A DNA stretch of 64,000 nt from Erodium maritimum (lineage: Eukaryota > Streptophyta > Magnoliopsida > Geraniales > Geraniaceae): NCBI GenBank assembly GCA_963921825.1, contig OY997594.1:11351001-11415000 (forward strand). The letters are read 5' to 3'. Shown piece after piece: positions 1,437 through 62,270 of this stretch. The notes under the pieces were generated by a model. That model was not told the origin of the DNA. It saw only the letters and a list, made by a program, of their open reading frames with translations, and searched no databases. Each line of letters begins with the position of its first letter. Within the stretch, counting starts at the first letter, position 1. The translations under genes and the position numbers were made by a program.

Positions 1437-1481
1437 GTTGCGAGAAAAGTTTTTGTACAGTTGTGTTTATATGCATACAAC

Positions 1482-10430: not shown

Positions 10431-10458
10431 ACTTGGTATTGAGGAATTGAGGAGGAGG

Positions 10459-10468
10459 TTATATATAG
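10459..10468 (-). promoter_or_regulatory. TATA box of the RAV-like gene
   Basis: CTATATATAA in sense lies about 96 bp upstream of the start codon, flanked by purine/pyrimidine-rich DNA. Its position fits a plant core promoter with a leader of roughly 65 bases. Confidence 0.7.
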
Positions 10469-10486
10469 GAGGTGGCAAGTGTGCAC

Positions 10487-25005: not shown

Positions 25006-26209
25006 CTAAAGTATGATGTGGGAAAATAAGAACTTGTAAATGTTATTTTTCCCATACCATCGTGACAAACTTACAGTGCAAAAAAAGAGAGAGATAGGGT
25101 GACAACTCTGAAACAAAAAATTTGTGGGAGGACATTTAGAATCTTTAGACAAATGTTCGACATAAAATATATTTATTGTATATGTAAAATTGTTATAAAA
25201 TATAACAATATGAATATAATTTTTCAATAAGGTGATGGATTTTTGAAGAAATAAACGAGATATTTTTTCCGGTGATAAAGGTGCAATTTTATTAATTCAC
25301 ACTTCAAATACATTCGAGCGCATAAGGGATAAATCCCTGAACACGAAGAACTAGATAAAGAACACAAAGTATTCACTATTCTTTTTAAACTATAACCGTC
25401 CCTGACGGTATTAGATGGGGCGTCATATAGGCAAGCTAACACTAAAGTATGACGAAATAAATGATCGCTGCTCAAGGTGCAGCCTTAATGCTGAATTGGT
25501 TGTATTAAACTGAACCTACGATTAATTGATTTCAAGAGTAGACAAAAAAAAACTCATTCGATTAGCTAGATCCATAATTGTGAGAGGGGTTGAGGAGGGT
25601 GCGGAGGTGGATGCCAAAGGACAGGCAGTGTCTGAAACGACGACGATGGTTTCAACGACGGCGGCGACGGCTTCAGATGGTGCGGTAGTGGAGACCAGGG
25701 TGGAGGACGCACCAGTGGAGGCTTTACCGACAAAAGGGGTTGATCAGTATCGATGCCCTAATACAGGGAGGCCGCGAGACTCAGAGGCAATGAGGTTGAT
25801 CGATGACGTGGTGAGCCAAACAAAAACCAGGATCGGGAAACACGTCTTTGGTGGTGGGAGGGAGACAACGTCGCGGTGGCTAGAGGCGGCTCGAAGGGAG
25901 TCCTAACAGTAAAAAGTCTAGCCGAACTCATAGGAAGAGACACAGAGGAGTAGCGGTTTGTGACCATCATCCAAGCAAAGCCGTTGTTGAAAGCGAAACA
26001 GTAGAATACGATTAAGAAGGAAGGAGTAATGAAAAAGTCATGGCAATGACCATGACTACTACGGCCTTAGGCAACGATTAGGTTAGAGAAAATAATTGGA
26101 GAACTCTCTAAATCGGTACCCTCCTTCGTTATTTTTGAGAAACCTTAATTGCTTCATTTTTAACAAACGAGATATATTAATTAGGAGATTCATTATATAT
26201 AAAGGGTAT
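25006..26209. other. AT-rich spacer, then unidentified GC-rich fragment
   Basis: 25006-25520 is AT-rich and holds nothing recognisable. 25526-25906 has a 126-codon plus frame rich in Thr, Val and Ala, also open in part on the minus strand. Its composition is like the N-terminal part of the local LINE ORF1 remnants, but no motif is shared clearly. It may be another retroposon fragment of uncertain strand. Confidence 0.35.
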
Positions 26210-37100: not shown

Positions 37101-38730
37101 AGTTCCGACACCCTGTTTATATTTTTTCGCTGTGCCGCCGACGCCTGAAAGAACTTCGTGTTCTGATCACTCTCCGTGAGCCAGTGCTGTTTAGCCCTCT
37201 GTCTCTAGAACTCCCTTTTTTTTCCAATGCAGAGACATAGAGTTTCTGTAACGCCCTCCTACGCCGAATACTCGTCCGATCAAGACGTCCATTCAGCCAC
37301 ATGATATCCTTTTCATATCGGGAGATTTTCCGAGCTAGAGCATTATAGAACTCCTTCCCCCATATATCCAGAGCCTCCCCAGTTTCCTTCGTTTTGACTC
37401 CAATATCGCAATCTCCAGGAGATCCCCACCACGCCTGGATTAAATGGCCGCACTCCGGGTCTTCCGCCCACATGTTTTCGAATCTGAACTATCTAGACCC
37501 CACCGGGTCCACTCGCCGTTCAGAGTCCAACAGGATAGGCAAATGATCCGATGTTGAGATACCCAGATTAACCAGATGGGCATCCGGCCACCACACCTTC
37601 ATTTCTCGCGACATGAGAGCCCTATCCAGTTGGACCGTCATTCGCGTCTCCGGTTCACTGCCACTATGCCACGTAAACCCATACCCTTGAAGTGGGACAT
37701 CCATAAGTCCTGTCTCCCGCATCGCTCCCCTGAACCCCTGGATGAGACCCACCGGATACTGATTCCCCCCCCCCCCCCCGCTTCTCCCGTTGCCTGAGGA
37801 TCCCATTAAAATCCCCCATAAGAAGCCACCGGTCCGACATCCCCACCCGGTTGCCAAGGGATCGAATCATCTCCCAAGTCTGCCACCGCAGATCCCGATT
37901 CGCCTCCCCATAAACTCCCGTGAACCGAAACGATTCCCCATTTGCGTCTGTAATGTCCACGTCAATATAGCGATCTCGGCTATCAACCTTTGTAACCGTA
38001 ATCCCCATTGCCAATAACAGGATAATACCCCCTTTATGTCCCACAGCCGGGACCTCGCATCCCCTCGCAAATCCCGTTTTTAGCCGCAGAATATCCACTT
38101 CTCCTTTCTTTGCCAGCGTCTCACTGAGGAAAATCACATGTGGCTTTCTACGCCGAATCGCCCCTTTGAGGTACTCCACTGCCGCAATTTGTCCAAGACC
38201 CCTGCAATTCCAAGAGAGCACCCGCATTTTGTTTCCCCCCGAGACAACCTCGACCAGACCACCAGCTAGATGTGACACCCTTTGCCTAATCAAATCCCGG
38301 TTCGACACCCCTGGTCCCAGCTAACACCTTCCCTACCATCGAAAATTGAGTGCCGCCGATGCACACAACGCACGCCCCGTGAGCACCACCCCTGATTCTA
38401 GCAAGTGCTCACAGCGCCACCAGTCGACCACGTCCCGAGTAAAACCCCGTAGACCGTGGGACAACACCCATCTTCCCCGCCGGATCGAACACAACCCCAG
38501 CCGAGCAAGCGAGACAAAATCCCGCAACCAACCCTCCAGAACGAGTTAAGAATTGGGAGAAACACTAGAAGAAGTATGTACCTTCCCCTGTCGACGCCCT
38601 GACCTCGCCGGCAACCACACGCCGCCGGACGCGCCCTAACAGCTCCGATACTGATGTAGACGGGAGCACCTAGGGCCGGCTGTTTACTCCTTTTTGGTGT
38701 AGCAATACATTTTTTCTTTGTATGTGTAAT
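34117..38730 (-). mobile_element. L1-like LINE, minus orientation, 4.6 kb, perfect 12-bp duplication
   Basis: TGTATGTGTAAT at 34117-34128 and 38719-38730 is a perfect target duplication. A T-run (34128-34137) at the left is the A-tail of a minus-strand insertion; the body is 34129-38718. It holds a complete-length ORF2 and about 490 bp upstream that may be the end of ORF1 (SKQPALGAPVYISIGAVR), so the copy is 5'-truncated in or near ORF1. The perfect duplication and near-complete domains make it one of the younger LINEs here. The next retroposon's target duplication begins only 8 bp to the right. Confidence 0.93.
34159..38227 (-). pseudogene. LINE ORF2: endonuclease, reverse transcriptase, zf-RVT, RNase H
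   Basis: The start is most likely ATG 38225-38227 (MRVLSWNCRGLG). The APE-type endonuclease shows WNCRGLG, FLSETL, YGEANRDLRWQTW, GDFNGIL and, after a frameshift at a 15-base G-run (37765-37779), GYGFTWHSG and STSDHLPILL. The RT follows: NKSPGPDSLNPYFYQKYW, LRLIALCNVIFKI, KLDMSKAYDRVEW, RGIRQGYPLSP and the catalytic FADD (36167-36178). Next are the zf-RVT region (VRSFLWRTCSGCLQVA, CPVCS) and WEVWKARNKVVWEQ. The C-terminal RNase H has VNTDG, VEAYAIRDAL, SDCKVIVDMI and NKAAHWLA. A C-terminal RNase H is known in a subset of plant L1 elements. At least four frame breaks (37.77, 37.48, 36.97, 35.8 kb and near 34.5 kb) inactivate it. Confidence 0.93.
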
Positions 38731-41319: not shown

Positions 41320-43867
41320 TTGCTTGTAAGAACCGCCCCCGGTCGACCCCGGTCGAACCGGTGAAATTCGGCGAAAGTTGACTTTCCGTCAAAAAAGTCA
41401 ATCGATGACTCCGGGAGTCATTCGTGACCTTTCCGGTACCCAAAAGCTTAGCCGTCGTTACAGTTAGCTTAGTTGGGTCGTTTCCTTTCTAATGACTACT
41501 TTTGTGAAAAAGTCAACCACAGGTCAAACGGGGTCAAAGTAGAGGCTAAATCGGATTAATTTAATGGTGCTAGAATTATTAAGTGTAAAGGTGGACCCCA
41601 CATAGACACTTGTCCATGGTGTCTTGGAGGAGAAGAAATGGGTCTAGAAAGACCCATTTACCCTCATTTGGGCCAAATTAGGATGAAGGGAGCTAAAGGG
41701 TAAAATAGGTAATTCAAATCTAGGTTAACGACAACAATTGAAAGCATTTCAGCTCATTTTCTTTAATGTTGGCCGAAATTTGGGTAGAAGAGAGAGAGAG
41801 AGGAAGCCATGGAAGCTTGAAGAAGAAGAAAGAGAGAAAAGAGAGAACTTTGAGTGGTTTCTTCACCAAAAAGCTTCAATTCGTCTAGTTTCTTCATCCT
41901 CTCTTCATTCCTAAGGTGAGTAATCTTGAAAACCCACTTTTAATGAAGTTTAAATTATGGGTTTGAGAGAAAAAGCATGAATAAGGTTGGGTTTCCATGG
42001 ATTTTGGGTTTTTGAGGTTTAAGTAGATGATTTGTGGATAAAAGTAGAGTTGGATGATGAAATTTCAATGGGTTTTTGTTGTTTTTGATGAAACCAACTT
42101 GGGGATTGAAGTATCGAGTTTTATGGGACCGATTTGGAGGTTTTTGATTGATAAAAAATGGAGTTTGAGGGTTTTTTTTCGTGGAGAACAAGTTGGAGGA
42201 AGAAGAAGGACGGAGCTGTCAGACTCGTCACAGATCCGTGACGGGGACCGTGACGGAGTGCGTCACGGCTCCGTGACGGAGGCCGTGACGGCACCCGTCA
42301 CGGTTCCGTGACGTCACCCGTCACGGTTCCGTGATGTCACCCGTCACGGTTCCGTGACGTCACTCGTATCAGGGAACATCACGGTTCTGTGACCTGAACC
42401 GTCACGGAGTCCATCAAGGCTCCGTGACCCGAACCGTGATGGATCATAATTGGGCCTTTTGTGCCCATTTTAGTCATTTTCGGTTAATTAGGAAGGTTAT
42501 CTATAACCGAGCCTATTGGGGATTAAATTGGGATGTTTCCTCTTTAAACCGTCCTTGAATTACTATTAATTCTTGTATTACTTGTGATCTTAGACGTTGT
42601 TTCCGAGCGCGACGGAGGAGGCTACTAGGCGACCCGTTTTGGCTTGCGTTTGGATAGCGATTGAGGTAGGGAAAAGTAGCGAATACTGGTTTAATTGCGG
42701 GAAGTTACTAGTATGCATATAGGTTATGAACAAATGATATAATTATAGAATTGCATGTAGGATGTGTGGAACGAGTGTAGCCGTGTAAAATGAGGGATAA
42801 CTTGCGAGCCATGTCGTGCCCGTAGGTTTGGGAATTGTTGTGCTGTAGTATCACATATGGGTCCCTGGTTGGGCCCGTAGGATTGCGTGTTGGCTGTGTT
42901 TTTTTGTGACTGATGACTTGTAATGCTTGTTATGTGGTATATCCGTTGTTAAATTGAGGATCATGATATGGTATGCTCGGTATGATATGTTGGTATGATA
43001 TGTCAAGTATGATATGTTTTGGTATGACGTGAACTAATGCCTTGTGATATGATCGGGTGATTGATAGACCGATGTGATGTGTTTTGGTAAGATTGTTTGG
43101 TTTGGTATGCTGTTAGTTGAACGATGACCTTATGATATGTTTGAGACATTCGTGGGTGTGATCCGATACGATAATTTCCGAGACGAGGTGTTCCGGTACG
43201 ATACCTACATCGAGGGAGGATTCCGGTGTAGGATATCTAGGCAGAGGATGGTGTTCCACGTACGCGGTCCCCCGGGGCTAAGGGTTCCGGTATGATGTCT
43301 ATACCAACGGAGAATTCCGGTATAGGATATCTAGGCTGAGGATGGTGTGATCTGTACCCCGATGATGTATGGTCCGGGAAGATATCCGACCGAGGTGTGT
43401 GTCGGTCCGGTATGTTTATTATGAGTTGTACCCCGATGCTGTGTGGTCCGGGAAGATATGTGTGTTCCGGTACGATATGGTTGAGCCTTGTGGTCGTTTT
43501 ACTGTGTGTTGGTTGTTTGATGATTGGGTAAGTGATGTGATTAAGCGTGGTTTTAGTCATGTGAGTATGGTTTGTGGTTATGTGATTCCTGTGGATGTCT
43601 TTAGTTGTTGTGCTTTTTTAGTATGCCCTAATTGGACAGTTACCCGTGGTGGTGAGCTGATAGCTCATCCCCTTAACTACTTTTTCCTACTGAGCGAAAG
43701 CTCACCCCTCTCCTTTACCTGGTTTTCGAGCTGTTGACTCGTATTGTCAGAACTTTTGGTTTGGATTATCATTTGAAGTTTATTTCTTTTAAAATTGCTC
43801 TTATCATTATTATTCTTAGTTCACGTCTCGAGTCCGGTCCAAATCGGATTTGGGGCGTGACATTGCT
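41320..43867 (+). mobile_element. solo LTR (2538 bp), Ty3/gypsy-like
   Basis: The body 41325-43862 starts TGTAAGAACCGCCCC and ends TTTGGGGCGTGACA, with a perfect TTGCT duplication (41320-41324, 43863-43867). TG...CA ends and a 5-bp duplication define an LTR; there is no interior, so it is a solo LTR left by recombination. A second copy with the same ends lies at 47882-50532. Internal features are a GTCACGG/CCGTGAC-rich cluster (42225-42450), TATGATATG-like repeats (42960-43060), and TACTGAGCGAAAGCTCACCC near 43690, a sequence type I associate with plant Ty3/gypsy LTRs. Family assignment is inferred; no coding region is left. Confidence 0.92.
42292..42364. repeat. three 23-bp units with TGACGTCA palindromes
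   Basis: Units 42292-42314, 42315-42337 and 42338-42360 each read CACCCGTCACGG then TTCCGTGACGT, with one change in the second. Junctions create TGACGTCA at 42309-42316 and 42355-42362, and a mutated TGATGTCA between. TGACGTCA is the core bound by plant bZIP (TGA/CREB-like) factors. The second LTR copy keeps one perfect TGACGTCA at 48892-48899. Confidence 0.85.
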
Positions 43868-45875: not shown

Positions 45876-47876
45876 TTTTTACCTTTGTTTAGCGAAAGGG
45901 ATTGCATACTATTAATTATTATGTGGATCGGGCATAGATTGGCCTGACACATAAGGACAGGGGATGAACATGCCTCCCTACCGAGCCAATGGGAGGCCTT
46001 ATTCGCTAACTTTTTGACAAAGATGAGTTTTGAGTCCTTGGTTTGAGATAGCAAAGCAGGTATATCTTGAAGAATGAAGCCTAAAGGTGAAGTAAGGGGG
46101 TAGTCGAATTGACCATGTGAGTAATTGTCTGGGCATCTAATCGAATAAGTATCTGAGTGCATTTCATATCTTTTGCGAACGTCGGGGCTACTGACACAAC
46201 GTGAGTGTCAATTATCGATGGGGACCATAGAGCAAAGACAACACCATTCCTTGCTGCCTGAACTTGGTCATATGTTGAGCGGGAAATAAACCCCTATCTT
46301 AACTGCATGTTGTCGGAAAACACTGGTCCATCGATGTTGAAAAAAATCCCTTTGGCAGTGGCGGGATACAACTCGTTTGTGCCTTTGGGTTGTACTTGGT
46401 GGGAGAAGACCGGGGTTGGGAGTTGTCCTCTTTCCAAGTTAGCATTTTTTTCATAGCACCATACTTGAGTCTTATGTCTGAGGGGGTACTATCGCTCTAA
46501 AACTTGGTATTCTGGGCTTTCCAAATATCCCATAACCAACCCAAGACTCGAGTCAAAAACTTAGGTATTGCCTCGACAGTGATAATTTCTTAGCATTCTG
46601 CAAAGTAGAGTTTGGGAGAAAGTACTGGGAGGGTCCCAGACATCGACCAACAACATTTGGCGAAACCACAGTAGAAGAGATGGTGGCTAATTGTTTCCTG
46701 ATGACGACCATACATTGGGCAGGTTGAGGATACCTTGACCAATTGTTGCAGGAAGAATCGTCAGTTAAGGCTCTCTAGAGTAAGATACAAAGGTAGGGTC
46801 GTGTGGGGATACTTAATAGGTCAGGCCATGGTGGTAAGGTAGCTGAAAATCTTGCTTGGGCTCTAATCTAATTTAGGACCTTGAATCATGCACAAGTGAT
46901 GTAAGATCTTTTGGAATCCGTGGCCCAATACCACTCATCCTTAGTACGGTGACAGAGAGAGGTACGACCAGGATCTCATCTTGGTCTTCTTAGTAAAAAA
47001 TATGCCTTATGAGGGTTACATCCCATATCCTGGTGTTGGGGATCATAAGGCATGCGATCGGGGCATTAAGATGAACTGGGGAGACAGTTTGAATGGTTGG
47101 GGTGGACCTTAATAACCATGGATAATGAAGAATATGAGTGTCCGTTCTAGGCTTAATAGCCCGACGGAGGCCTGATTGCATGAGAGGTTGAATGGAAAAT
47201 ATGCTAGCACATGTATAACTGAGGTTATTACCTAAAGTGGCCGATAATAAATCCCTCGATGGGTAATACCATGCACGTAGAAGACGAAAAACTAAAGAGT
47301 TAGGTCGCAAAAAAGACCTCGTGCCTTTTTCCCAAGAAGCGTCATATTAGTACCATGCAGATGACGGAACCCAATTCCACCTTTCACATTAGGGTTGCAA
47401 AGTTTTTCTTAGTCCTGCTGGATAATTGGCCACCCCTTGATGACATACCTTCCCCACCAAAACCCGGCTAAGGCGATATGGATCTTGTCTGTGATACTAC
47501 ATGGTACCTTGAACATCAACATGATATATATTGGAATAGGCGTAATGACGGAACATATCACCACCTCCAACCATGCCGGTGATAACATATTTCCATCTCA
47601 AGACTGAATACGTCGGACCACCCGGTCCCCCAAGTACACATATGAAGAGTCATACTCCTCCCAGTCATGTTAGTATCTTTGAGGTAAAAGGATGACTATG
47701 ATATTTATGCTATGTTTAGGGTGGTACAACAAGATTATCGGTTTGCGAGAGGGAGTATTAGAGCTAAAGAAAATTGAAAACTTTTGATTATTCGGAACTT
47801 GGTCTGATAATGTACCAAACAACGTCAGGATGTCTTGGATGGAGGTAGAATCCTCAATATCAACTTTGTAGAAAAT

Positions 47877-50537
47877 GTAACTGTAAGAACCTCCCCCCCG
47901 GTCGATCTCGGTCAAACCGGTGGTTTTTGGGGAAAATCTACTTTCGGCCGGAAAAGTCAACCGATGACTCCGGGAGCCATTCGGGACCTTTTCGGGACCC
48001 AAAAAAGCTTAGCCGTCGTTACGGTTAGCTTAGTTGGGTCGTTCCCTTTCAAATGACTATTTTTACGAAAAAGTCAACTTTCGGTCAAACTAGGCCTAAT
48101 TAGATGTTAAACCGTATTAAATTAAAGGTGCTGGAAATTATTAAGGGCAAGGTGCCCCCCACATAGACACTTGTCCATGTTGCCTTGGAGGGGAAGAAAT
48201 GGGTCTATAATGACCCATTTACCCTCATATATGCCAAAATAGAAGAAAAGGAGCAAAGAGGGCCTTTTAGTCTTTTCTCCCTTAGGTTTAAGAGCCATCA
48301 AAGAGAAATTTCAGTTCATTTTCCCTTGTTGGCCGAATTCTATAGAGAGAAGAGAGAAGTTGGAGAACTCCATTGAAGCTTAAAGAAGAAGAAAGAGAAA
48401 GGGAGCTCCTTTGGTGGTTTTTCTTCCCAAATTTTCTCCAAAGCTACATAATCTTCATCATCTCTTCATCCCCAAGGTAAGTAAACTCTAACAAACTACT
48501 TTTAATCAATTTGGGGTTATGGGTTTCCATAGAAATTGCATGAACTTGTTGGGTTTTGAGTTATTTGTTGTTAGATGATTGTTTATGAGAAGAAGGAGGT
48601 TGATTTATGTAGAAATCAATTGGGGTTTTGGTTGTTTTAGATGGAAATCTCTTGGGTAATTGTTGTTTTGATGAAACCCACTAAGGGTATTGAAGTATTG
48701 AAGTTATGAGACTGATTTGGAGGTTTTGGGTTGAGAAAAATGGAGTTTTTGGTGTTGATTTCGTGGAAAAGAGGCTGGAGGAAGAAGAAGGGCGAGTCTG
48801 CTCGGACCCGTCACGGATCCGTGACGGGTACCATGACGGAAGATGTCACGGCTCCGTGACGGAGGCCGTGACGGCATACGTCACGGTTCCGTGACGTCAT
48901 CCGTGACGGGGAGCCTCACGACTCCGTGACCCGAACCGTGGCAGATCAGTTTTGGGCCTTTTTGGTCCATTTTGGGTGTTTTTCGTTTAATTAGAAAGGT
49001 TATCTTGAACCGAACGTTTGGGGGTTTTAACTTGAGTGTTTGCCTCTTAAACCACCCTTGATTTGTCATTAATTCTAGTACTATTTGTAATCTTAGACTA
49101 TGTTCCCGAGCACGGCGGAAGAGACTTGTATGCGGCTCTCAAGTGACTAAGCGTTTGGATAGCGTTTGAGGTAGGGAAGAGTAGTAATAACCGCTTTTAA
49201 TTAAAGAATGTTAATAGTATGCATATAGGACGTAATAAAAGGTAAAGTCTTAGCTTGCATATAGAATGTGATTAACTAGAATCACATGTGGCCATGTGGG
49301 CCTTAGGATTGTGTGTTGGTTGTGATTATTAGTCCTTAAATGTTGATGTATAGTATCGTCTTTGGTTACTTTAAGAATCATAGCATGCTATATGAATTGT
49401 GATGAATGTGATACGAATGGTTGTTTCTGGATATGATTGGTAGAATAAATGTGATACGAATGGTTGTTTCTTGATATGATTGGTTGAATGAAAGTGATAT
49501 GAATCGTTGTCTTGTGATATGATCGGGTGAATGATAAACTGATGTGTTGGGTTGGGTAAGTGTATCGGTAAGTTTGATGGTATGATAAGTTCGGTGTAAC
49601 ATGTGTGGTATTGTATTGTGTGGTGTGACTTGTACCCCGATGTGCGTTTCTGGGAAGATACTTGACCGAGGTGTGTGCCGGTCCAGTATGTTTGTTCAAG
49701 ATTTACCCCGATGTGCGTTTCCGGGAAGACATCTAGGCCGATGTGCGTTTCCGGTATGATGTATTGTTTGCTTACCCCGATGTGCGTTTCCGGGAAGACA
49801 TCTAGAACGATGGGTATTCTGGTATGATGTATTATTTGTTTCACCCTGATGCTATGTGTTCGGTAAGACATCTAGGCCGATGGTGTATTCCAGTACGATG
49901 TATGTATTTCACCCCGATGTACGGTTCCGGGAAGATATCTAGGCCGATGTTGTGTTCCGGTACGATATGTTGAGTTATGAGTGATGATCGAAGTATCACG
50001 GTGTACCTTCCTCATGTCCATATGATGTCGGTTTGAGTGTTTGTTTGTAGTTGGCATTGTAATGTAATAGTTGGTTGTCTGGGTGTTTCTCTAGCTGAAT
50101 CTGTTGTCATCAATGTTATATTCCTGGTGGTTTTGGTCTGAGTTGTCACTTACTAGTATGAATTATTGACCGAGCAATTGTGGTGACGGTGCAGGAGTCA
50201 TTTCTGTTACTACTTTTTCCTACTGAGCGCAAGCTCACCCCTTCTATTTTACTGTTTTTACAGGTTTCGATGGTGAGTCGGTTTAGAGGACGTCTCAGAG
50301 CTCGGGAGCTCATCGAGAGTCCGGGGGTTTATCTTTTAGTAGAGACGTACTTTCTGTTTATGAACTAAACTGTGTTTTTACTTATTTGGATTTGAGCGTT
50401 TGACTCGTGGCATCGGATTTGATTATGAACTATTCAGAGATTTATGTTACTTAAATTTACTTGTATTATTGCCTTTATTTTATTTTAGTTACGTCTCGAG
50501 TTCGGGCAAAAAACCGGATTTGGGGCGTGACAGTAAC
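47877..50537 (+). mobile_element. solo LTR (2651 bp), second copy
   Basis: The body 47882-50532 starts TGTAAGAACCTCCCC and ends TTTGGGGCGTGACA, with a perfect GTAAC duplication (47877-47881, 50533-50537). It matches 41325-43862 along its length, including the shared 5' 300 bp, the CCGTGAC cluster (48800-48945) and the TACTGAGCGCAAGCTCACCC motif (50220). It is about 113 bp longer, mostly from the tandem array at 49634-49979. It interrupts a LINE RT directly after its catalytic-motif codons. No internal region remains. Confidence 0.93.
49634..49979. repeat. tandem array of five 68-71-bp units inside the LTR
   Basis: Units begin ACCCCGATGTGCGTTTCCGG at 49634, 49705, 49774, 49843 and 49911 and contain GGGAAGACATCTAGGCCGAT followed by a second TTCCGGTATGATGTA half. 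The other LTR has only about two comparable units (43357, 43431). The 166-codon minus frame at 49371-49871 is a by-product of this array. Confidence 0.85.
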
Positions 50538-52617
50538 AATCCTCAACAAAGAACATGTGAGATATAATGGGGCCCCTCAAGCCACTGCTATCTCGTGAAT
50601 CCTGACTTCCTATTGCATTTTACTTGGCAGACGAGACAGACCCTCCATATAAAAAAGGAATAGATACGGGGATAAGGGGTCCCCCTGTCTTAAGCCCTAT
50701 CTCAGAGAGAAAGTTTGAGTTTCCTTCCTTCCTGAGCTAACCAAATAGGATTTTGATCTCATACGGACCACACTTAGAGCCCGTCATTTAGATGAAAAAC
50801 TCATCCTTTCCATTACTAAAAGAATGAACGACCACTCGACTCGATCATAGGCTTTACTCATATCGAGTTTCAGCTCCATAAACCCCTCATAACTCGTTGA
50901 TTGTGAATGTAATGGAATATCTCAAAGGAAATCAAAATATTATCTAGAATACATCTTTTGGGAATGAAGCCGTCTTGGGCTTGGGAAATAATCCCATGCA
51001 AGAGAGGTTTCAAACGATTACCCAATACTTTATAGAAAATTCGAAAGATCACATTGCATAAAGCGATAGGTCGGAGATCAATAATCAACAACAAATTTGG
51101 TTTCTTGGGAATCATCACCATATTGATCGCATTCAGGCATGAGTCAAAAGTTCCTTCATAGATCGTTTGTTGTAAAAATCTAACCACCTCCTCCTGAACT
51201 CTTTTCCAATAGTGTTGAAGGAACCGGAATTGAGGCCGTCATGACTTGGTGCCTAATCAAGTCTCATTTGGAACACAACTTCCAACACCTTTTTCATTCA
51301 ACACCGCTTGTAGAAGGGTAGTGTTTTGTGAGTTAGTTATACCAATTCCCTAAAACCAAACAGGAAAATTTTGGAGTTTAGGAAGCTCGGTAGTGAATAA
51401 GATTATGAAGTTCGAGAAGACAAGGTCTTTGTTCCCGTATTCCAAGTGGCCAACTCCCTCTCATCACTCTGAGCAGTGAAACCCGCATTGCCCTTGCAAC
51501 GGAATGAGGAAACTACGACGAACTTGTCCCATTTGGTTGAACCATATATCCACACTCCGGATCCTGAACTCAACGATACTCAAAACAAAACTTCCTGGTA
51601 CTTGATGATGATTGACATGGAGAAAATAGTGAGGAGTAGGGGCTAGTGGTTTGAGGTCGTGGTTCCTGTATTCCGTAACTCCTCGTTCGATAACGAATAG
51701 TACATATCTTGGGATATTATAGCTCGATCAAGGAAATATTCTACATGCGCATATTATTTCTTTCCCGAAACCATGTAAATGGGTGACCCAACATCGGCGT
51801 ATCACGTAGGTCTAAATCATCTATCACATCTTGAAAGGCTTGAAGGAGAGTCAACGTGTATTATTGACTTCTCAAGGTTCCAATTGATGAAGAATATTTT
51901 TGAAGTGCCTGATGACAACACATGATCTCTATTTATCCCCAATGGTCATAAAAGATCCCAAGATTGATTCCAGTGATCTGTTCGTGCGTGTCCATAAAAT
52001 CCTGTAACCTCGATCAGAAGTTTACCTAGAGATGTTATAGTGACATCGATTTGGTTTGTGGAGGAAGTGCCCATCGTGACGTCCAGACCCGCAACCCACA
52101 TCATTTCAAAACCCTGTTTTTGTCCATCGTCAGGACCGTAGTCCTCAGGTGGAGTCCCAAGCTCCGCTGCAATAGTGTGAGTTTTGACTCATGCGTTAGT
52201 GTCTTAGATAGAAAAATTAGGTGCGGATGATGAGCATCCAATAGTTGTTTCAGGTGTTGGGTGTGGGTAATGAAGCCCATCCCCTAGCAATTTCAGGCGA
52301 AAATTCAATGGTCCGGTTTCTAAGAATAGGTAGAGTTGGTGGGAGTTAGAGATCGGGGGATTCAGCTAGGAGAGAAGGCATGCTGGTGAAGGCGATTGAG
52401 AGGATGGGGAGGTTGGTTGAGAGAAAGGACAAGTGGTGGAGTGGTAACCGAAGACGGGATAGTAGGATAACGTGTTGTCGGACGCCTTGGCGGGCCAAAG
52501 GATGAAGACACCAGTAACGACTTGAATTTTATGGAGATCTCGATGAAGATTTTATTGAGGAACTCTAAGAGACGACATATCTTACTACTCTCAGGTATTT
52601 ATCAGTTTTTGACTTAG

Positions 52618-54299
52618 TAACTTTTCATCGTGTATTAGAAATCTCTCTCGCGCCTCGAGAGTAAACCCTAGCCCTAGTCCCTGCGACTATGGTGCTCCCT
52701 AGTCCTGTCTCTGCTGCCGAAACCGCCACTAACAATGTTTTTGTAACTATCGGCTTTGTCATGGCGTCTCCGGTACAACCTTCTCCTTTGAAGTCCTTTC
52801 TCTGTCCTCCTTAAGCGGTTTTGCCTTTAAAGGCCCAACGTAGGAGGAAGCCGAAGCAAACACTAGTTGGGCTTCCCTCTGCACCTCTTTCTCTTTCAGT
52901 GGAACCACCACTACTTCCACTCTTCGACCTTAGTGCTCCTCGTGATAGGGGCCCCATACCGTCCCCTATCGGGAAACCACTTTGAGGTCAACCAGTGAGG
53001 GCTACGGTCATTTCTTTGTCTGCAAGCAACTCCCCTTTGGTTCTCCATCCACCTCCTCTAGCCGTCATCTCTCTAGTTCCTCATACTTCTCGTGCTCATA
53101 TTCTTCATGTTGAGGTCGGGCCTCAGTTCATCCCTCCACTTTACTAGGCCTCGGCACGTGGGAAAGCTCCAGCTGCTGATCCCCCAAGGTTGGCCATGGA
53201 AGCTTTGGGTATAGGCCGTTTGATTCCTAACAAGGATCGGATTCCGCTCATCCCATCCCTTCTCACTGCACCGGTTGGCCTGAATCATGGCGGAAGATGG
53301 CTCAATCCTAGGAGGGGTCCCCATCATCCATGGCTTTCGTCGTGACGAATCTGTTGGCTTCCATGGTGTCACTTCAGGACTGGTTCTCGCCCTGTTCCCT
53401 CAAGGAGGCTGAGGGGGTGGAGATGGTGGCCCCAAAATCCCCGGTCGCCTCCTCTGTGCTTGTGTGACAACAGTTCGGGTTGGTAGGCAAGTTCAGGGCA
53501 CCAATGCCTCCCCAGAAGAGTGTTCGTCTCGATACCACTACATGGGGGTGATCTACGGAGGAGTATCAGAAGGACAAACCGGTGAAGCCATACGCAACAG
53601 ACTAAAAGGAGAGTTCATCGTCGACCATATCTCCGAGGTTTAGGTTTTTATCTCCGAGCACTATATCTAAGGGCTCCTCGTCTCGTGGGAGGAGCTCATG
53701 TGTTTCCCCGATCACTGTATCTAAGGGTACAAAACCTTAGGTCATCACCCATATCGGGAAGATAGATCCCGACTGGAAAAATTTGGTGATCGTTCATCCC
53801 TCTGGTGGCACGGTCACTGAAGTTTCAACGCCCTCTCCGCTTGGGCACAGAGATGTTAAAGGAGCTGCTACTAGAGGACTGTTAAGGCCCGCTGTTGGGG
53901 CTCCCTAGGATGATCAGGCGAGAGCTGGTAAGCATCCTCGTCAGGAGGGATGCTTTCCTCCTCACGCTTCAAGCACTGGCCCTGGGAGGGGTCTATGTGA
54001 AAGTCTTGCCTCCTATTACTAATGTAGTCCAAACTCGGATTTTTGAGCAGGAGTTCCAGTTTTCTTTTCTTTCCCCCACTGTTTTCCCGCTTATGTGGCG
54101 CCTCAATACTGTCTGACGGTTATAGTATTACAAGAACTGCGAACCATTCGTTCTTTGTCTGTTCTTTCTTCGTGGTTAGAGAAATTATTCCTTTTCGTAC
54201 ATCTATATAGTTGAAAATCTTATTAATTTTTTTGAAACAGTTGAAATCTGATTAATAATATTGTACCTTTCATTAAAAAAATAACTTTTCACCGTGTAT
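52618..54299 (+). mobile_element. ORF1-only non-LTR retroposon with 18-bp duplication
   Basis: TAACTTTTCATCGTGTAT (52618-52635) recurs at 54282-54299 with one mismatch, with an A-run at 54275-54281. The body is 52636-54281 (1646 bp), plus. It begins with a CTCTCTCG leader and AAACCCTA (52663-52670). It carries only ORF1-type sequence (see the pseudogene entry), then a T-rich 3' region. There is no EN, RT or RNase H between ORF1 and the A-tail, so it is a non-autonomous half-LINE or an internally deleted copy. Confidence 0.88.
52690..53910 (+). pseudogene. ORF1-type protein of the half-LINE, broken
   Basis: Starts near ATG 52689 (MVLPSPVSAAETATNNVFVT). The basic patch PLKAQRRRKPKQ (about 52830) and VGLPSAPLSLS correspond to those in 560-1436 and 27640-29690. 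Further on are RLAMEALGIGRLIPNKDRIP (53190-53250), QQFGLVGKF-like sequence near 53470, and KIDPDWKNLV near 53770, equivalent to DPGWKNLV at 12780-12860 and WKNLEA at 29310. The DUF4283-like and CCHC segments present in the 28.7-29.1 kb copy are not recognisable here, so the middle is shortened. Several stops and frameshifts. Confidence 0.6.
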
Positions 54300-54373
54300 A
54301 GTTTTAATTAATAATAATATAATATAATCATATGTATGTATAAATGTGTCTCGTGATTACACCATAACAAAAT

Positions 54374-55349
54374 AATACCCATAAACTTTTTGACGCGCAG
54401 AGCCCTCTCTCTCAAAGGAAACCCTACGCCTCCCTCTTCTTTTGCAGCTGTCGCCATCGACGGTCGCCGCCACTCCGGTCATGGTGGTTGTCGGCGGCTC
54501 TGTCTCCCTCTCTCGTACCTAATCCCGCTTCTCTCCCTTGCCATGGTCAGTCGCTGCCCTTCCCCACCCGCCGCCCTCCTCCTCCACCCGGACGTGGTCG
54601 TGTCTTGCTCAGCCACACCACCTCTCCGGTCTCCTGCAGCGATCGTCAGTCGTCGCCCTCCTCCACCTTGACCTGGTAAGATATCCACCCCACCCACATC
54701 GCCGGTTCATCCCCTGTTTCACCCTCTCGTTGACCGATTCCATCCGACACCCGCTGCCCTTACGCCTCCAACGTCCTCCTCCGGACGCCCCTCCCGCCCC
54801 TGATCTTGGCTTGGTGTTCAAAGTCCCTACCTCCACCTCTCCGTTCAGATCTGTCGGCACAGTCCGAAGCTCAGGGATTCGAGGACCCACACGAACCCTA
54901 GGGTTTCTCTTGAACCTTCGGGTTGTTTCATGGTTTCGTTCTTTTGTTGGGTTTGGGATCCGGGAGGAGGTGCGTTAGGTTGAGGTATGTCTCCACGGTT
55001 TCTTGGCCGTCCCAGGAGGAGGAAGGAAGCAGATCGCCCCGTTGGAGCATTTCGAGAACCCGGCGTGCGCTTGGTTTTTTTCTATCTTAGTTTGTTTTGG
55101 TTAAGACTTATTGTATGCTGGATTATTTACATTATGTTTCGTACTTTTGAAATGTAGGTAATGGAATGTCGTGAATTAGTGACTACGATCAAAAGTAGAT
55201 TATTACTATAGGCTCATGAGCGTACGGCTTGCTAAGGTCGGTCCGGACAAATATCTGGAACGTAGGGTTTTTACGCCCTATCTTGTATGATTATTTGTTC
55301 ACAGTAATGCACTTCCTTAATTACTCGTTTCAAAAAAAATACCCATCAA
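54374..55349 (+). mobile_element. short non-LTR retroposon with 12-bp duplication
   Basis: AATACCCATAAA (54374-54385) and AATACCCATCAA (55338-55349) match at 11 of 12, with an A-run at 55332-55339. The body is 54386-55337 (about 950 bp). It begins CTCTCTCAAAGGAAACCCTA (AAACCCTA at 54419-54426) with GC-rich Pro/Ser-coding frames (54538-54978), a T-rich 3' half and no recognisable domain. It probably represents a 5' leader joined to a 3' end, mobilised in trans by LINE proteins. Confidence 0.82.
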
Positions 55350-56039
55350 TTGTTAAAGATAATTTCAATTTTTCCCACATGTGAATCTGTTAAAAAAATA
55401 CTTGTTGCATTTTGATGTATTTGAGATGGCTAATCCGCCACATCATGCCCGCTTATGACTTTGGGAGTTTTGTGTCATGTCACACACACCTATAAGACAT
55501 GTAAAATAATAACAGATGGAAAGTGACGAAATCGATTCTTTATTATGGATGAGCGTACTGATAAGAAGTGTAAACTAAACGTTCAAATTATGGTTAAGAG
55601 GATAATAATAAAATAGTTGTGTCGATAACCTTAACATTTCTTATAGCGGATGATCTCACGACCACTATATCCCAACCCACTGTTCCTTTCTTGATTAACA
55701 TGACCTCAGATAGTCCCGCTTATTCTTCTGCAACATGTGTATACTAATGGGCACATAATGTCCATTTCATGACCAATTATCACGTTATTAGTCAGTCGAA
55801 TTGGGAGATTGGTTGGATCGAATTGAGACCGTATTTCTGCTCAACCAAGTAAATCAGGATGGTGAAAAATCCGATCAATTCAAAGTAGTTGTCATGAAAA
55901 GTTAATTTTAGTTCATGATTGATTATTCTTTTTCCCACAACGAATAAACTAAAAATTGGTTTGCATAAGTTAAAACAAAATAAATAAAACAGTCAAAGGT
56001 GTTACAAGTATTATATTACGTATGAAATGCCCTAGGATT
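55350..56039. other. AT-rich intergenic DNA
   Basis: No gene or bounded repeat seen between the two retroposons. Confidence 0.5.
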
Positions 56040-58567
56040 AGTATACCTTATAATGCACAAACCCTAATACACCAGCAGCCTCTCTCTCTCACGAATCTGA
56101 TTTTTGCGATCCATGACAGCAACGATAAGGATGACTGAATCCAATACCGAAAGTAACCATGTTCCGAGCAGCGATGACGGGCCAAGGTCGACGAGTTTCT
56201 CCCCTCCGGCGTCACCGGTGTCTCGTGTATGATCACGTTCTCCTCCTGTCTTCTCATCGGAGAATGGTGAGGGAGGGAACCAAGGAGGAACGAAGATGGT
56301 GCTTTCGGCGAGTAAGACGGCGTTGAACACGAAGATCGTCACCGTTTTAGGTGGTAGAAGATCTCATGGGCTGGCGTACAAGATTGTACGTCGTACGTCG
56401 GCAGTGGGGCCTCGCCCACGAGTAAGGAAAGCGACGCAGGCGACGCCGAAGTTGGGACGAGATCGGACACCTTCGGGTTCCCCTTCTCCGACGTCCCTGC
56501 GAGATCTGGCGAATTTGGAGATGGTTCACTAGAGGGCGGCGCCGGTAGAGACAGGGCCGGTGGAGAATACGGAGACGGAGGAGGGCGATACTGACTTGGT
56601 GGCGACTTACGGTGGGGGACTGCCGGTTTTTCGATGAGGACCGTGATCGAGGAAGGTCTAGCTAGCGACGCGGCCACCACCACCTGGAAACGGAGGCCGG
56701 GCAAGGAACCCGCTAGGGTTCCGAGCCTCGGCGAGAAAGAAGATGAGGTATGGGCTGTTGGCGTGGGCCTGGACCGGCTGCATCTTGGGCCAAGGAGGCA
56801 GAATGGGGCGGTGGTTATGGACTTAGGCCTGGGCTCCACCCATCTTAGGCCGCGGAGGGGCTATGGACAGGGTCGGCCTGCTGCAAGGTCGGGTAGGTCT
56901 GACCCAGACCATTTCAGCGGGGAGGGGATCCGAACTGAGTACCAACCGAGCAAAGGGCCTCTTGGGATCGTACCAGAGCTGCCTGGAACCCGAGAACTAA
57001 CAGCAAAAGTGGGGGACCCTCTCACCAGTCTGAAATGGGGAACCTCAGAGCTCAGATAGGGAGCCTATGCATCAAAGAGGCGGTGTTTCTCCCATCAAAA
57101 GTATGTGGTAGGGGTACGAATTTTTCGTACACTATAATTGCAAAGGTTCTGTCCACGAGAGCGTTCTTTTGGAAGACGTTGATGGAATGACTGGAAGACA
57201 AATGGGAAATCCAAAACGTGGAGGCAAGGATGCTGGAGGAAGGAGTAGTCGCCTTCTTCTTCAGGAATGTCGTAGAAAAGGGCGAAGGTCTTAGTAGGGG
57301 AGCCATGGGAGTTCCGAAATTCCTTGGTTCTGTTTGCTGACCTCCGGCCACATATGAGGCTTGGAGATATGCTATTCACGCACTTCTCGGCATGGGTAAG
57401 AATCTCGAACATGCCAGTGGGAAGGTAGAACAGGGGGCCGACTTTAGGTTAGATAGTACGTTGGGAGTCTGTCAGGCAGTTGACGACGATGCCGACGGGA
57501 TGTGCTGGGGAGACTTTATGAGGATCCAGGTTCGAGTAGACATTTGCGTCCCCTCCAAAGCCAGCTTTGGTTTAGACTCACTGAGTCTTAGGTACGTACG
57601 ATACTCCATGTCTCGTATGAACGTCTACCCAATCATTGTTTCGGTTGTAGTTGTGCGGTGCGGGCCACCTATTCAACGCTTGTCCAGTGGAGGGGGAGTC
57701 AGAGGTCCCTCGCTAAGATCATCATCAGACCCTAGGTCGGTTTTTGCGCGATGAAAGCACTAGAAACCTGACCGGGAACAAACTGGACTACTTAGGAGGT
57801 TCCTTGGGACATCAAAGTTGGTTGTTCACCCCGGAAGCACCGACTCAGGGCAGGCCTGCTCGAGGTCGTATAGAGGAGGCTCCAGTTTGGCCACCTCGGG
57901 AAGATAGAGACTTTCGTGGAACTAGGCTGAACAACCCGGATTTTATTCCGGACGATCAGGCCGGCACCTCAGTGTCTGCATGACGAAAGAGGCTGTTGCA
58001 GGAGGAGGGGGATGAGGAGTCTGAAGGTTCCTCGAAAGTAGGGGAGGCGAAAAATGCAGCGGCGGGGGGTTACAAGCACCCTCACCTCACGGAATGAGTC
58101 TGAGGTGGTCCAACGGGGGGTCGATCGACATCACCGCCCCATTGGACATAAGGTGGAGTAGGTTCCGCCAAGATCCGACAAGATACACCTCTACTTTCCG
58201 GGGGAAAGCAATTTCGCGTTTAAGAGCACTACTTCTATCAGTTCAGGGAGGACGACGCAAGCTGGTATCTTGGAGGAGTATCCACTCCACCGCAGTAACA
58301 ATCCGGAAATGGGTCCGCTCAACCCTATCTTCTAGATAAGATCAGTTATATCGGTGTCAATCGACGCTAACGTAGTATCCCCCTCTGAACGCCTCAACGA
58401 AGCGGTTCGGTTTAATGAGTCAGTTTTAGATTTTTATTATTGCAAGTTAATTTTCTTGTTTTCCAGTTTCAGAACTTTATTTTCGATGATAGGTGGTTGT
58501 AACTGTCTTTCATTCGCTTAAATTTATAATACAACTCGTTTACCTAAAAAAAAGTATACCCGATAAT
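56040..58567 (+). mobile_element. ORF1-only non-LTR retroposon (2.5 kb) with 15-bp duplication
   Basis: AGTATACCTTATAAT (56040-56054) and AGTATACCCGATAAT (58553-58567) match at 13 of 15. An A-run ends the element at 58546-58552. The body is 56055-58552, plus, starting with ACAAACCCTAATACACC and a CTCTCTCTCTC leader. It has ORF1-type coding sequence and a 3' region whose segment 58090-58190 matches 2670-2770 in the 1773-3071 element. No EN, RT or RNase H sequence lies inside, although 2.5 kb is ample for ORF1 alone. Confidence 0.85.
56296..58090 (+). pseudogene. ORF1-type protein of the 2.5-kb half-LINE, broken
   Basis: Frames 56296-56532, 56634-57059, about 57390-57754 and 57744-57983 follow one another. 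The first is a basic N-terminal region (MVLSASKTALNTKIVTVLGG). The region 57385-57440 aligns with the minus ORF1 remnants at 15.7 and 23.4 kb. WGDFMRIQVRVDICVPS near 57510-57560 fits the LRIRVxID block that follows the DUF4283-like domain in plant L1 ORF1 proteins. The CCHC knuckle is not clear. Antisense frames at 57052-57412 are shadows. Stops and shifts make it inactive. Confidence 0.55.
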
Positions 58568-58599: not shown

Positions 58600-61262
58600 A
58601 TAATGATTAAGCATGTACAGTGGAACTTTTGAATATGGATTCTAGGGTTTCACCCTCGTCTCGGGGTCTTTCGGGATCGTCCAACACTCCTCCTCGTCGA
58701 CGAGCTCATCCTCGGGCGGCTCTTCGTCGGTATGTTGTCCTCATCCCTCTCTTTTTTCGCTGCATGCTTCTCTTCAACCGTCATCTCAGATAGTTACTTT
58801 GTCGCCGTTTCCACCAGGTTCACGGGCGTCGACACCTACTCCGCCCCTCCAGATGTTGCGAATCATTTCTTGCAATTTTCAGGGGATGGGTCTAACACCC
58901 ACGCTCAACATCTCCAACACCTTTTTTCCCAATAGACCTCACGCCATGTTTCTCCATAAAACGTTAACTACGGAAGTAAGGATGGCGATTGTCTAACAAA
59001 ATTTGGGATTTCACGTGGGTACCTGGATCGTTGTGATGGAAAATCCACGGGGCCTGACACTATTCTGGGTTGAAGGGTTTCATATCACAATAGGGCCAGA
59101 CTCCTTTCATTCTATCGATCTGGAAGTCACAGGCCTGGATCAAAACCCCTTCTTCCTCGCACGGTTCTATGGCGAAGCACGAAGGGATCTCCGATGGCAA
59201 TCATGGGATCAGCTCTACACACTTGCCAAGGCGGGTAAGGATCGCTAGATCATTATTGGCGACTTCAACAATTTCCTCAGTCATTAGGAATTTATGGATA
59301 TTCTTCCTTACTTGACTGCTCGTATTGTTGATTTCCAATTAATGATTGACGAACTGGAACTGAAGGATATCCCGCTTCTAGGGCACCCGTTCACCTAGTC
59401 TCATGCAAGGACCACGCAACACTTATCCAATCACGGCTAGACCGAGCCCTTATATCTCGTGAGTTCCTCTCCTTGCTATTGCACGTGGAACTCCGCAACA
59501 CGGGCATGACCACCTCCGACCACTGGCCAATCCTTATCACTATCAATACACGTCGCCCAATATCGGGTCCTTCCTAGTTTTAATTCGATTCTTGATACCA
59601 CTGACCCTAAATGTGGTCATTATTACAGAATGAATGGGACAATGAGCTCAAACCGCCCATTTGTAAGGACATAAGCAAGATCAACATCTCGTTAGATCAT
59701 TGAGGGAAATCCAATTATCAAAAAACCTTAAACAATAATCGTTGATGCACAATTCAGATACAATACGAGGAAACTCTTCGTATTCAGGCCACATTATGGA
59801 AAAAAAGAGCTAAGCGCCGCTGACTGGTAGATGGGTATCACAACATGAAGTTATTTCATGTTGCGTGTTTGTATTGGAGGAAGTTTAATTTTATTTGCTC
59901 GATTCAGAATAGTTTTGGTCAACCGGTTACATGTGAAATCGGGCTCCGGAATTTAGTGATCGATTACCATACCACGTTATTCACCACCTCCAACCCAGAC
60001 CTCGTCGACTTCCCTATCCACTCCGCCACAAGGGGGTCAAGGAAAGTCAGAATGCAGAGTTGTTACAAAAAGTTTCGGCTGAGGAGGTTCGGCAAGCGGT
60101 TTTGCAAATGAGTCCGATAAAGCTCCGGGTCTGGATGGTCTAAACCCCCGATTCTACCAACATTATTGGTCAGTGGTGCAGGAGGAGGTCATCAGATTTG
60201 TTCAAACAACGATCCGTGAGTGGTCCTTTGATCGGTCTCTAAATACCAAAAATGTGGTGTTAATCCCAAAAAAGGTCAACCCATAACTTATCACTGATTT
60301 ACGGCCTATCACTCTTTGTAACGTGATCTCTCGTATTTTATCCGAGGCCATGTCTAACAGATTGAAGCCTTTGTTGCAGAATCTTATAGAACCAACTCAA
60401 GGGGCATTCATCTAGGGCAGACGCATCTAGGATAATATTCTTATATCCTTTGAGATCATTCACTTCCTTCGGAAATGGTGATCGAGCAACATGAGCTACA
60501 TGGCAGTAAAATTGGACATGAGCAACGCGTATGTCAAGGTGGAGGGGCCATTTCTGCTTTTCATTTTACAGCGGAAAGGTTTTTCATTAGAATGGATGAC
60601 ATTATTGGCTACATGTGTGGGATCGGTGGAGTACTCGGTAAATTCAGGCGGTAATGAGACCCATATATTTTCTTCGTCGAGTGGAATCCGTCAAGGGGAT
60701 CTCTTGTCACCCTATATGTTCATGTTTTGCATGGAAGGTCTGTCCAACCTACTCAATAAGGCGCAGGCCGTAGGCCACCTCCATGGTATAATGGTAGAGT
60801 AGCCCCCCGACCATATCTCATATGTTCTTCGCATATGATTGTTATATTTTCTGTTGAGCCATCCCAGAAGAGGTCAGCAGGGTCGATACCCTCCTTACAA
60901 CATTTGGAACGCTATTTGGCCAAGTCTTGAATCACCAAAAGTCTTCAATTTTCTTCAGCACAAATACTGATCCGACGACTCCTAGGGAGTGTTGTTTGAC
61001 GCTCCATATTTGGGAAGGTCTCGGAAGAATCCTTAGATCTCGGGGTCCCAAACATGATTGGGAGGCACAAGAAACGAAAAATGTGATATTTGGCGGATAT
61101 GGTGGTCCGATGATAATTCAATCGAATACTTAGGTCCTCTTAAATATGATTCGAAAAGAGGATCATCCAGCTTTATCAGTGGGAATCATTATCCGAAAAA
61201 TTCGACACTTGCTTCTTCAAAAGGGGTATTACTCTCAAATTTATTAAAAAGATTGTGAACAT
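58600..61262 (+). pseudogene. LINE ORF2 remnant (endonuclease and reverse transcriptase), plus
   Basis: Upstream leader with CTAGGGTTTCACCC (58646-58660). The endonuclease shows RIISCNFQGMGLT near 58860, MFLHKTL, FYGEARRDLRWQSWDQL (about 59165) and IIGDFNNFLS (59250), then a TSDHWPILI equivalent near 59520. The RT has KAPGLDGLNPRFYQHYW (about 60120), LRPITLCNVISRI (60300), KLDMSNAYVKVEG (60510), SGIRQGDLLSPYMFMFCMEG (60680) and an active site that reads FAYD (about 60825), with an Asp replaced. SIFFSTN and PNMIGRHKK follow near 60945-61065. Sequence similarity to the other LINEs fades at about 61130-61260; zf-RVT and RNase H are missing. Multiple stops. No target duplication was found. Confidence 0.8.
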
Positions 61263-62270
61263 GACATCTTTTTGAAACGGGTAATTGGAGAAGGGCATTA
61301 CTACAAATAAGTAACCAAACAAGGTAAGACATAACCGCCCAGGGTTCCAGATATTTTTCTGGGCCGACCGTAGCAAGCCCAGCGCTCATGGACCCATAAA
61401 GATAGCCTACTTGACATCGTAGACAAAAACTTAGGACATCCCCTTGCAACCGTCTCAAAACAACGAGATATAAAGAAAAAAAAGTCCTAAACCAACCTAA
61501 CCAAACACTTATTTGACCTAGAAAGAAATACAAAGCAGACATAAAAGCTGAACGTAGTGCCTTGAATACGAATTTCCCGAGACTTCCCAGTACTGGTAGT
61601 CCCGGGTCTGTGGGTATAGTCCGTAGACGTACCCTCCCACCCCCGTTGGGATGAGGGCTCCGTCTATCATCGAACCCGGTTTGTCCTTCAAAGGGGGTAC
61701 GCTTCCGGCGAGACGCCGGATCTCGAGAGTGGGGCTATCGCCCGATGATGGCGAGAAAGTGACGCCGGGCAGAAAATACGACAGGGGTAGTGGGGCGAGT
61801 CGCTGGTGGTGCAGGTGCGGGGCGAGTTGCTGCACGGGGGAAGGTTCGCGACGCATCCCCACCGGCCGAGCGACACCCTGTTGCAGACGACCGAGCGTGG
61901 TCCAGGGACGACGACGCTGGGCTGTGAACGGGAAAGCAACGGGAGCAGGTGGCTGCATGGTCGAGTCGGGAGAGAAGGCTGAACACGGATGAGGAGCCGG
62001 AATGACGCAGTATCGGAACCAACGCCGATCTGGAAGGATCATTGACGGTGAAGTGTAGCCCGAGGGGTTATGTTTAACCCAACCTAAGGTATCCGAGAGC
62101 TTGGAAGCAAAAAGCTTCACTCGTGAAAATAACGTGACATCTTATTTGCTAGCTAAAAAGGTTTATTCTATGTCTATTTTTTTGTAGTTGGGAGTTGAAC
62201 TCCTCGATGGACTTCTTTGTATTTGATTTCATATAATTAATACCATATGCATTTTTTGCTATAAAAAAAA
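61263..62270 (+). mobile_element. probable short non-LTR retroposon with A-tail
   Basis: An A-run at 62263-62270 preceded by a T-rich 3' region (62160-62260) indicates a plus-strand retroposon end. The centre (61640-61990) is GC-rich, as in 54386-55337 and 32694-33764. The 200-codon minus frame (61518-62120) is Pro/Ser/Arg-rich and antisense to the tail, so it is probably not a gene. No clear duplication was found; it may also be a rearranged end of the LINE to its left. Confidence 0.4.

Follow-up and report, generated by a model that had tools for sequence, protein, structure and literature searches.

A probable split L1 system in Erodium maritimum: ORF1-only elements beside ORF2-only LINEs

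Main finding and searches

The stretch analyzed here comprises 64,000 nucleotides of the Erodium maritimum genome (the window; C7:11351001-11415000 of the 763-Mb assembly), and the system in question is an L1-type long interspersed nuclear element (LINE) whose two open reading frames (ORFs) lie on separate mobile elements. In the copies read, ORF1 is carried by elements of about 2.5 kb and ORF2, with its endonuclease (EN) and reverse transcriptase (RT), by elements of about 4.6 kb; shared ends, target-site duplications (TSDs) and recent whole insertions are seen, and in this sample of copies each half is present as a TSD-flanked unit without the ORF of the other. From comparison of the sequences we consider it probable that an L1-derived ORF1-only lineage exists beside ORF2-only L1 LINEs and that the ORF1-only RNA is copied in trans by the ORF2 protein (ORF2p). 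The initial annotation of the window had suggested that ORF1-only units spread separately in this plant, which is largely supported by the shared ends, the TSDs and the absence of ORF2 from the loci read, and that they might be part of a split two-partner system, for which the TSD-flanked ORF2-only LINEs now provide independent support while trans-mobilisation is what we infer.

Two families, A and B, were followed through the genome with the bodies 56055-58552 (family A) and 52636-54281 (family B) as queries. Only the best candidates were scored, both in these searches (40 of 2723 for family A and 40 of 1661 for family B) and in the protein searches with RT (104 of 17972) and with ORF1 (150 of 8828), the ORF1 query being 136 aa from the core of L026, a family A copy. 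The probes for ORF2 were the EN and RT of the LINE at 34 kb in the window; they pick up the window's LINE lineages at about 30% identity, and their sensitivity is therefore fair.

Family A is an ORF1-only element

The family A element of the window (56048-58552, plus strand) is decayed and consists of a CT-rich leader, an ORF1 remnant, a 3' untranslated region (UTR) and an A-tail. Its frameshifted ORF1 core, which is of the DUF4283/zf-CCHC_4 type (57233-57654, plus strand; tblastn, with Pfam on a sister copy), bears out the initial reading of this unit as ORF1-type, and its 3' UTR holds a conserved box (58207-58264, plus strand) common to the family A subfamilies and to four intact ORF1-only copies read. 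The EN and RT probes found nothing inside 56055-58552. The element is flanked by the TSD AGTATACC at 56040-56047 and 58553-58560, which is weak (8 bp exact, or 13/15 with mismatches) in that mismatched control pairs score as high. With this reservation, both this unit and its family B counterpart at 52636-54281 are, as first described, A-tailed and TSD-flanked units without EN or RT; an open ORF1 is present in neither.

Family A has at least 51 matches in its own genome, several of them co-linear over almost the entire body with identical ends. In sensitive alignments the near-full-length copies start at body positions 5-68 and end at 2491-2498, and eight of them reach both ends (L010, L011, L013, L015, L016, L018, L020 and L027). 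Family B behaves in the same manner, with at least 65 matches and most long copies starting at 4-9 and ending at 1643-1646. The shared 5' and 3' ends establish A and B as real families, and these ends are common to the copies of each rather than private truncation points, the sharing of 3' ends being one of the checks proposed in the initial annotation. This refutes the idea of a chance assembly of degraded or 5'-truncated LINE fragments, a reading that the decay of both window copies and the many partial matches might invite and that the TSDs and the co-linear near-full-length copies also contradict; we regard it as wholly implausible.

No ORF2 was found inside the element at any of 34 family A loci read, nor at any of 14 family B loci (11 distinct places), in agreement with the initial expectation that most copies lack it. 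The family A set comprises 20 loci, the upstream sequence of 10 additional 3' UTR matches over about 1.1 kb each, and the 3' regions of four intact ORF1 copies. LINE sequence does occur beyond the element ends, specifically in L015 (an antisense piece and, over 1 kb upstream, a small sense piece) and in the 5'-truncated copy L019 (sense, 2.7 kb upstream and outside the element). Sense ORF2 was found in none of the 10 upstream stretches. In L045 an RT lies outside the element in antisense, and L052 gave a weak EN match (E 0.005), also antisense; seven of the ten show the N-terminal part of ORF1 joined to the 3' UTR without the core, and three have no ORF1. The join between ORF1 and 3' UTR is crossed in a single alignment in 16 of the 34 loci, which represent five subfamilies and two intact copies. 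One candidate for a hidden ORF2, the 3.75-kb gap at this join in L013, was rejected, the insert resembling a non-coding element at 41.3-43.9 kb in the window.

TSDs were sought in 18 copies of both families, with 16 mismatched pairs as the control (best score 11/11; 6 of the 16 pairs gave something). Duplications are clear in the window copy of family B (17/18), L010, L015 (16/16), L034, L038 and L040, and fall within the control range in the window copy of family A, L011, L030 and L032.

Some family A copies are short and have no ORF1 core (L048, L050, L044, L046, L049, L028, L017 and L052). The 3' border of their gap is nearly identical (body 1983-2007), and they suggest a subfamily that has spread.

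The ORF1 core is selected and the lineage has intact members

Substitutions in the family A core peak at third codon positions (0.40, versus 0.12 and 0.19 at the other two; body 1051-1200), while among the 3' UTR windows one shows periodicity at p 0.04 and the others none. The ratio of non-synonymous to synonymous substitution rates (dN/dS) of the core is 0.123 between subfamilies (bootstrap 0.103-0.163; 123 between-subfamily pairs from 18 copies, with L017, L022 and L028 left out) and 0.42 within them, as against 0.71-0.86 in three 3' UTR frames and 1.2-1.6 in the wrong frames of the core. We conclude from these comparisons that the family A core evidently evolves under purifying selection between subfamilies. 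Selection on ORF1, a point raised in the initial annotation, thus has a positive answer for the family A core but not for family B, which has no consistent signature. Synonymous divergence of the core exceeds 1 (dS >1) between subfamilies, which suggests a long history. Trees of the ORF1 core and of the 3' UTR both recover the same subfamilies, namely those of the window copy, of L020/L023/L024 and of L026/L027. Because of the low dN/dS, the subfamilies recurring in both trees and the alignable join, we hold that the ORF1 core and the 3' UTR have, to all appearances, travelled together without ORF2 while selection kept the core.

Fragments of sister copies match DUF4283 (PF14111) and zf-CCHC_4 (PF14392) in three of six cases (E 3e-6 to 2e-3), the sole Pfam match above the curated cut-off being zf-CCHC_4 at 27.2 bits. 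Among the ORF1 matches listed are 18 stop-free frames of 603-684 aa. The 3' side was read for four such copies, and in all four the end of the frame is followed by a 3' UTR, an A-tail and unrelated flank; the 3' UTR of the intact copies measures about 430-500 bp and carries the conserved box in highly conserved form. Two intact copies, read at both ends, have the ATG, the core match and the stop in one frame, giving 642 and 653 codons; the open frames listed for these copies by the search are 623 and 610. Both have a CT-rich leader with AAACCCTAG ahead of ORF1, and their TSDs (14/14 and at least 47/47) compare with at most 11/11 in the 16 mismatched-pair controls. The coding ORF1-only lineage is therefore recent.

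The second of these duplications belongs to an intact ORF1-only insertion (L067/L064, at C1:119.87 Mb) and is unusually long, with at least 47 bp identical. The motif AAACCCTA recurs in the CT-rich leaders of L067 and L068, at window position 54420 and at the 5' end of family B; it resembles the telo-box of plant promoters.

ORF2-only LINEs form the other half

One ORF2-bearing element of the window is an L1 LINE of about 4.6 kb (34129-38718, minus strand) with an exact 12-bp TSD (34117-34128 and 38719-38730), a word that is unique in the window on that strand. It starts with GCCGGCCCTAGG, followed by a leader of about 0.5 kb and then by the EN start codon (EN part of ORF2 at 37667-38320, minus strand), and has matches to Exo_endo_phos, RVT_1 and zf-RVT and an A-tail; an RNase H (RVT_3) match was obtained only on the related 17.3-kb element. 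It thus shows the hallmarks of the plant L1 clade, that is, an ORF2 with EN and RT, a TSD and an A-tail. Its ORF2 is broken, and no ORF1 lies upstream of ORF2 in this copy or in its TSD-flanked relatives, which all begin about 0.5 kb before EN. Because the copy is TSD-flanked at both ends the missing ORF1 is not a defect, and the element is ORF2-only rather than truncated.

The same layout is found in two more copies, in which ORF2 is long and the TSDs are 15/15 and 13/13. A search with the 5' region of one of them (L059) gave 54 rows, in which 19 further copies start at query position 14-21, and EN lies 446-688 bp downstream of this shared 5' start in 18 of the 19. Given these copies and the TSD-flanked ones, ORF2-only is the normal full-length form of the 34.1-kb lineage, as far as sampled. 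Open ORF2 frames reach 1375 aa among the RT matches listed.

The window holds two further ORF2-type lineages. One (58856-60977, plus strand) has an EN about 30% identical to that of the 34-kb LINE and no ORF1 between it and the family A element; the other (46326-52304, minus strand) is interrupted by another element and has no ORF1 between its EN and the family B element. The initial statement that the LINEs at 34.1, 45.9 and 58.6 kb lack a complete ORF1 is correct, and the first of them is TSD-flanked in that state. The window itself holds an example of each half.

Family B, a probable rider

Family B is represented by a short, A-tailed form at 52636-54281 (plus strand) with a TSD at 52618-52635 and 54282-54299 (17/18), inside which the EN and RT probes found nothing. 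The initial description of this unit as ORF1-type stands in part, since it is ORF1-derived but lacks 544 bp of the ORF1 core that longer copies retain. The identical deletion occurs in five places (the window copy/L029, L030, L031, L032 and L033), and the long copies measure about 2.14 kb (n=6, L037-L042). LINE sequence near family B loci lies outside the element, as an antisense neighbour in L029 and a sense RT piece 0.8 kb past the A-tail in L030. Because it has no consistent codon signature, family B would seem to be a rider that is either decayed or non-coding. We claim no purifying selection for it, its periodicity being confined to single windows.

Proposed mechanism

An ORF1-only element consists of its own 5' leader, a gag-like ORF1 with DUF4283 and a zinc knuckle, whose product presumably binds RNA, its own 3' UTR and an A-tail. 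We propose that its RNA is translated, and selection on ORF1 points to the ORF1 protein (ORF1p) most likely acting on the RNA that encodes it. This RNA would then be copied into new sites by target-primed reverse transcription, with an EN and RT that come from ORF2-bearing LINEs and most probably from those with ORF2 alone. Both proteins would also carry the core-less shorter forms (52636-54281 and the short family A copies) as riders. That ORF2p acts in trans and is supplied by the ORF2-only LINEs is what we infer; an L1-type enzyme working by target-primed reverse transcription would be expected to leave TSDs, A-tails and defined 5' ends such as these. Compared with the ORF2-only end, the final 32 nt of the ORF1-only elements score above shuffled sequence in family A (17.8 versus 15.3, sd 0.43), in family B (18.5 versus 15.7, sd 0.57) and in the intact copies (19.5 versus 15.2, sd 0.9), with L013 and L041 left out for having no A-run.

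LINE proteins are thought to favour their own encoding RNA, and ORF1 and ORF2 are therefore expected to stay linked. None of the loci read, which are a sample and not a genome-wide census, holds a two-ORF copy. Comparison by eye of the RT and ORF1 lists over part of the contigs showed no neighbours, though with so few candidates listed little overlap would be expected even if the two were linked.

The dependence may go further. We advance tentatively, as a possibility we do not favour outright, that these are two mutually dependent transposons, with ORF1p acting in trans on ORF2-only RNA and ORF2p in trans on ORF1-only RNA, together a long-kept multipartite LINE. If true, L1 would have been split into two mutually dependent elements within one plant genome. 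A refinement that is also compatible with separate ORF1-only and ORF2-only lineages, and that we take seriously although we hold it at somewhat less than an even chance, is one-sided parasitism, in which the ORF2-only LINEs need no ORF1p and the ORF1-only elements borrow ORF2p with nothing given in return. It would agree with the ORF2-only copies being numerous, with listed open ORF2 frames of considerable length, and with ends that share little with the ORF1-only RNA past the last 25-30 nt.

In any of these forms, a selected ORF1 without RT beside ORF1-less LINEs offers a system for testing the role of ORF1p, the strictness of cis-preference and multipartite LINEs, and a part of the DUF4283 zinc-knuckle frames annotated in plants may represent a separate kind of transposon.

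Weighing the evidence

A number of observations weigh against an ORF1-only lineage mobilised by ORF2-only LINEs. As to selection, the choice of core windows followed the periodicity scan, the N-terminal window has a weaker dN/dS (0.44 between subfamilies and 0.74 within), no periodicity was found at family A body 376-675, and that of family B appears in single windows only (p 0.008 and 0.024; 27 windows). The ORF1-core and 3' UTR trees disagree on the order of the subfamilies and on L019. No TSD was found in 8 of the 18 copies tried (L013, L016, L018, L021, L031, L036, L041 and L042), among which L021 has lost its 3' end. Among the ORF2 copies, L061 gave no TSD and its leader contains an open frame of 144 aa without a match, 20 of the 54 rows from the L059 search match the EN side only, and no TSD was found at the 45.9- and 58.6-kb LINEs, which may be truncated; the TSD-flanked ORF2-only form is that of the 34.1-kb lineage. 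The likeness of the 3' ends is modest, confined to the last 25-30 nt, AT-rich and partly compositional, and the shuffle behind it was simple and one-sided, with a null that used three of seven ORF2-only ends. A search of the ORF2-only loci did not find the conserved 3' UTR box, and an RNA fold of this box is not supported, the RNAalifold energy being about zero. Finally, two-ORF LINEs may exist unseen, since only the best-scoring candidates were scored.

The last point bears on the strongest competing explanation, that the ORF1-only copies are recurrent internal-deletion derivatives of two-ORF L1s that are still present, with no lasting ORF1-only lineage. The family B short form and the short family A copies demonstrate that deletion derivatives can form and multiply in this genome, and HAL1 elements are described as having arisen several times independently in mammals (PMC5753468); the sample of best-scoring copies and the differing subfamily order of the two trees also leave room for it. 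Yet copies of different subfamilies, and the intact L065 and L066, can be aligned across the ORF1/3' UTR join, most subfamilies recur in both trees, the loci read include no two-ORF copy, and the core remained selected while the subfamilies diverged to dS >1. We therefore judge recurrent deletion unlikely.

Less likely still is that the ORF1-only elements are SINE-like RNA parasites (SINE, short interspersed nuclear element), whose protein plays no part in mobility and whose open frames are leftovers. That the core-less short forms have spread too indicates that an element has no strict need of an ORF1 in cis, and family B, which has no consistent codon signature, would suit such a view. The core dN/dS of 0.12 between family A subfamilies and the 18 listed stop-free frames argue the other way, and the SINE-like reading of family A and of the intact lineage is disfavoured.

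Related fragments and other elements in the window

Further pieces of family A lie at 2603-2873 (plus strand; 3' UTR, with the box at 2748-2808), 15492-16105 (minus strand; ORF1 core), 22258-22656 (minus strand; 3' UTR, with the box at 22411-22475) and 23207-23437 (minus strand; ORF1 core). Those of family B are a 5' fragment (1190-1452, minus strand), a fragment at 12812-12940 (minus strand), a 3' end fragment (25240-25441, minus strand) and pieces of the long form at 27782-29361 (plus strand), which give three separate matches, one of them within the middle part that is absent from the short form. A 3' segment shared between 1773-3071 and 56055-58552 had been noticed at the outset and is found at 2603-2873, and the similar sequence reported at 12.4, 15.4, 22.1 and 27.6 kb corresponds to 12812-12940, 15512-16105, 22258-22656 and 27782-29361; that reported at 40.3 kb has no match to either family. 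A LINE-like A-tail does occur at 40276, with no family A or B match nearby.

Two copies, 71% identical, of a long mobile element lie at 41325-42766 and 47882-49270 (flanks to 43.9 and 50.5 kb), and a relative of the 41.3-43.9 kb element, 3.75 kb long, is nested in L013. A short retro-unit of about 0.95 kb (54380-55336) has a CT-rich start, the AAACCCTA motif, an A-tail and a possible TSD, AATACCCAT, whose score is within the control range; its 3' part recurs, 71% identical, on the opposite strand at 61269-61482 (minus strand). The window also contains a Plant_tran transposon and an open, intronless frame of 414 aa for an AP2-B3 (RAV-type) transcription factor (9302-10546, minus strand).

Comparison with known systems

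The closest parallel in architecture is HAL1, which is described as L1-derived, encoding ORF1p only, non-autonomous and of several independent origins in mammals (PMC5753468). Like HAL1, the ORF1-only elements described here encode an L1-type ORF1, have no EN or RT in the loci read, and possess their own ends, an A-tail and a TSD. HAL1 relied on complete two-ORF L1s. By contrast, the host here is a plant, the ORF1 is of the DUF4283/zinc-knuckle kind, its core is under purifying selection between deep subfamilies, and ORF1 is also missing from the ORF2-bearing L1 lineage examined. The likeness is one of architecture, so the ORF1-only elements are not filed as members of HAL1.

In plants, DUF4283 marks the ORF1 of LINEs such as Celine of poplar, which combines a DUF4283 ORF1 (1617 bp) and an EN/RT ORF2 (3765 bp) in one element with TSDs and poly(A) (PMC11288735). 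The domains of both ORFs, the TSDs and the poly(A) are the same in Erodium, but the ORFs are on separate elements. HeT-A of Drosophila telomeres is a gag-only non-LTR (long terminal repeat) element that has to borrow its RT from a different element; it is bound to the telomeres, and the partners that carry RT, TART and TAHRE, have a gag of their own, whereas the units here are dispersed and the RT-bearing lineage is without ORF1. SINEs are likewise non-autonomous, with an A-tail, a TSD and a 3' end resembling that of the partner LINE. The units here measure 1.6-2.5 kb, and family A and the intact lineage (about 2.5 kb) encode a selected or open ORF1, so that these two are neither short nor non-coding as SINEs are. 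No report of ORF1-only or ORF1-less plant LINEs was found in open-access full text, which is weak evidence of novelty. HAL1-like ORF1-only elements are known; the present case differs in that the ORF2-bearing lineage examined is also without ORF1.

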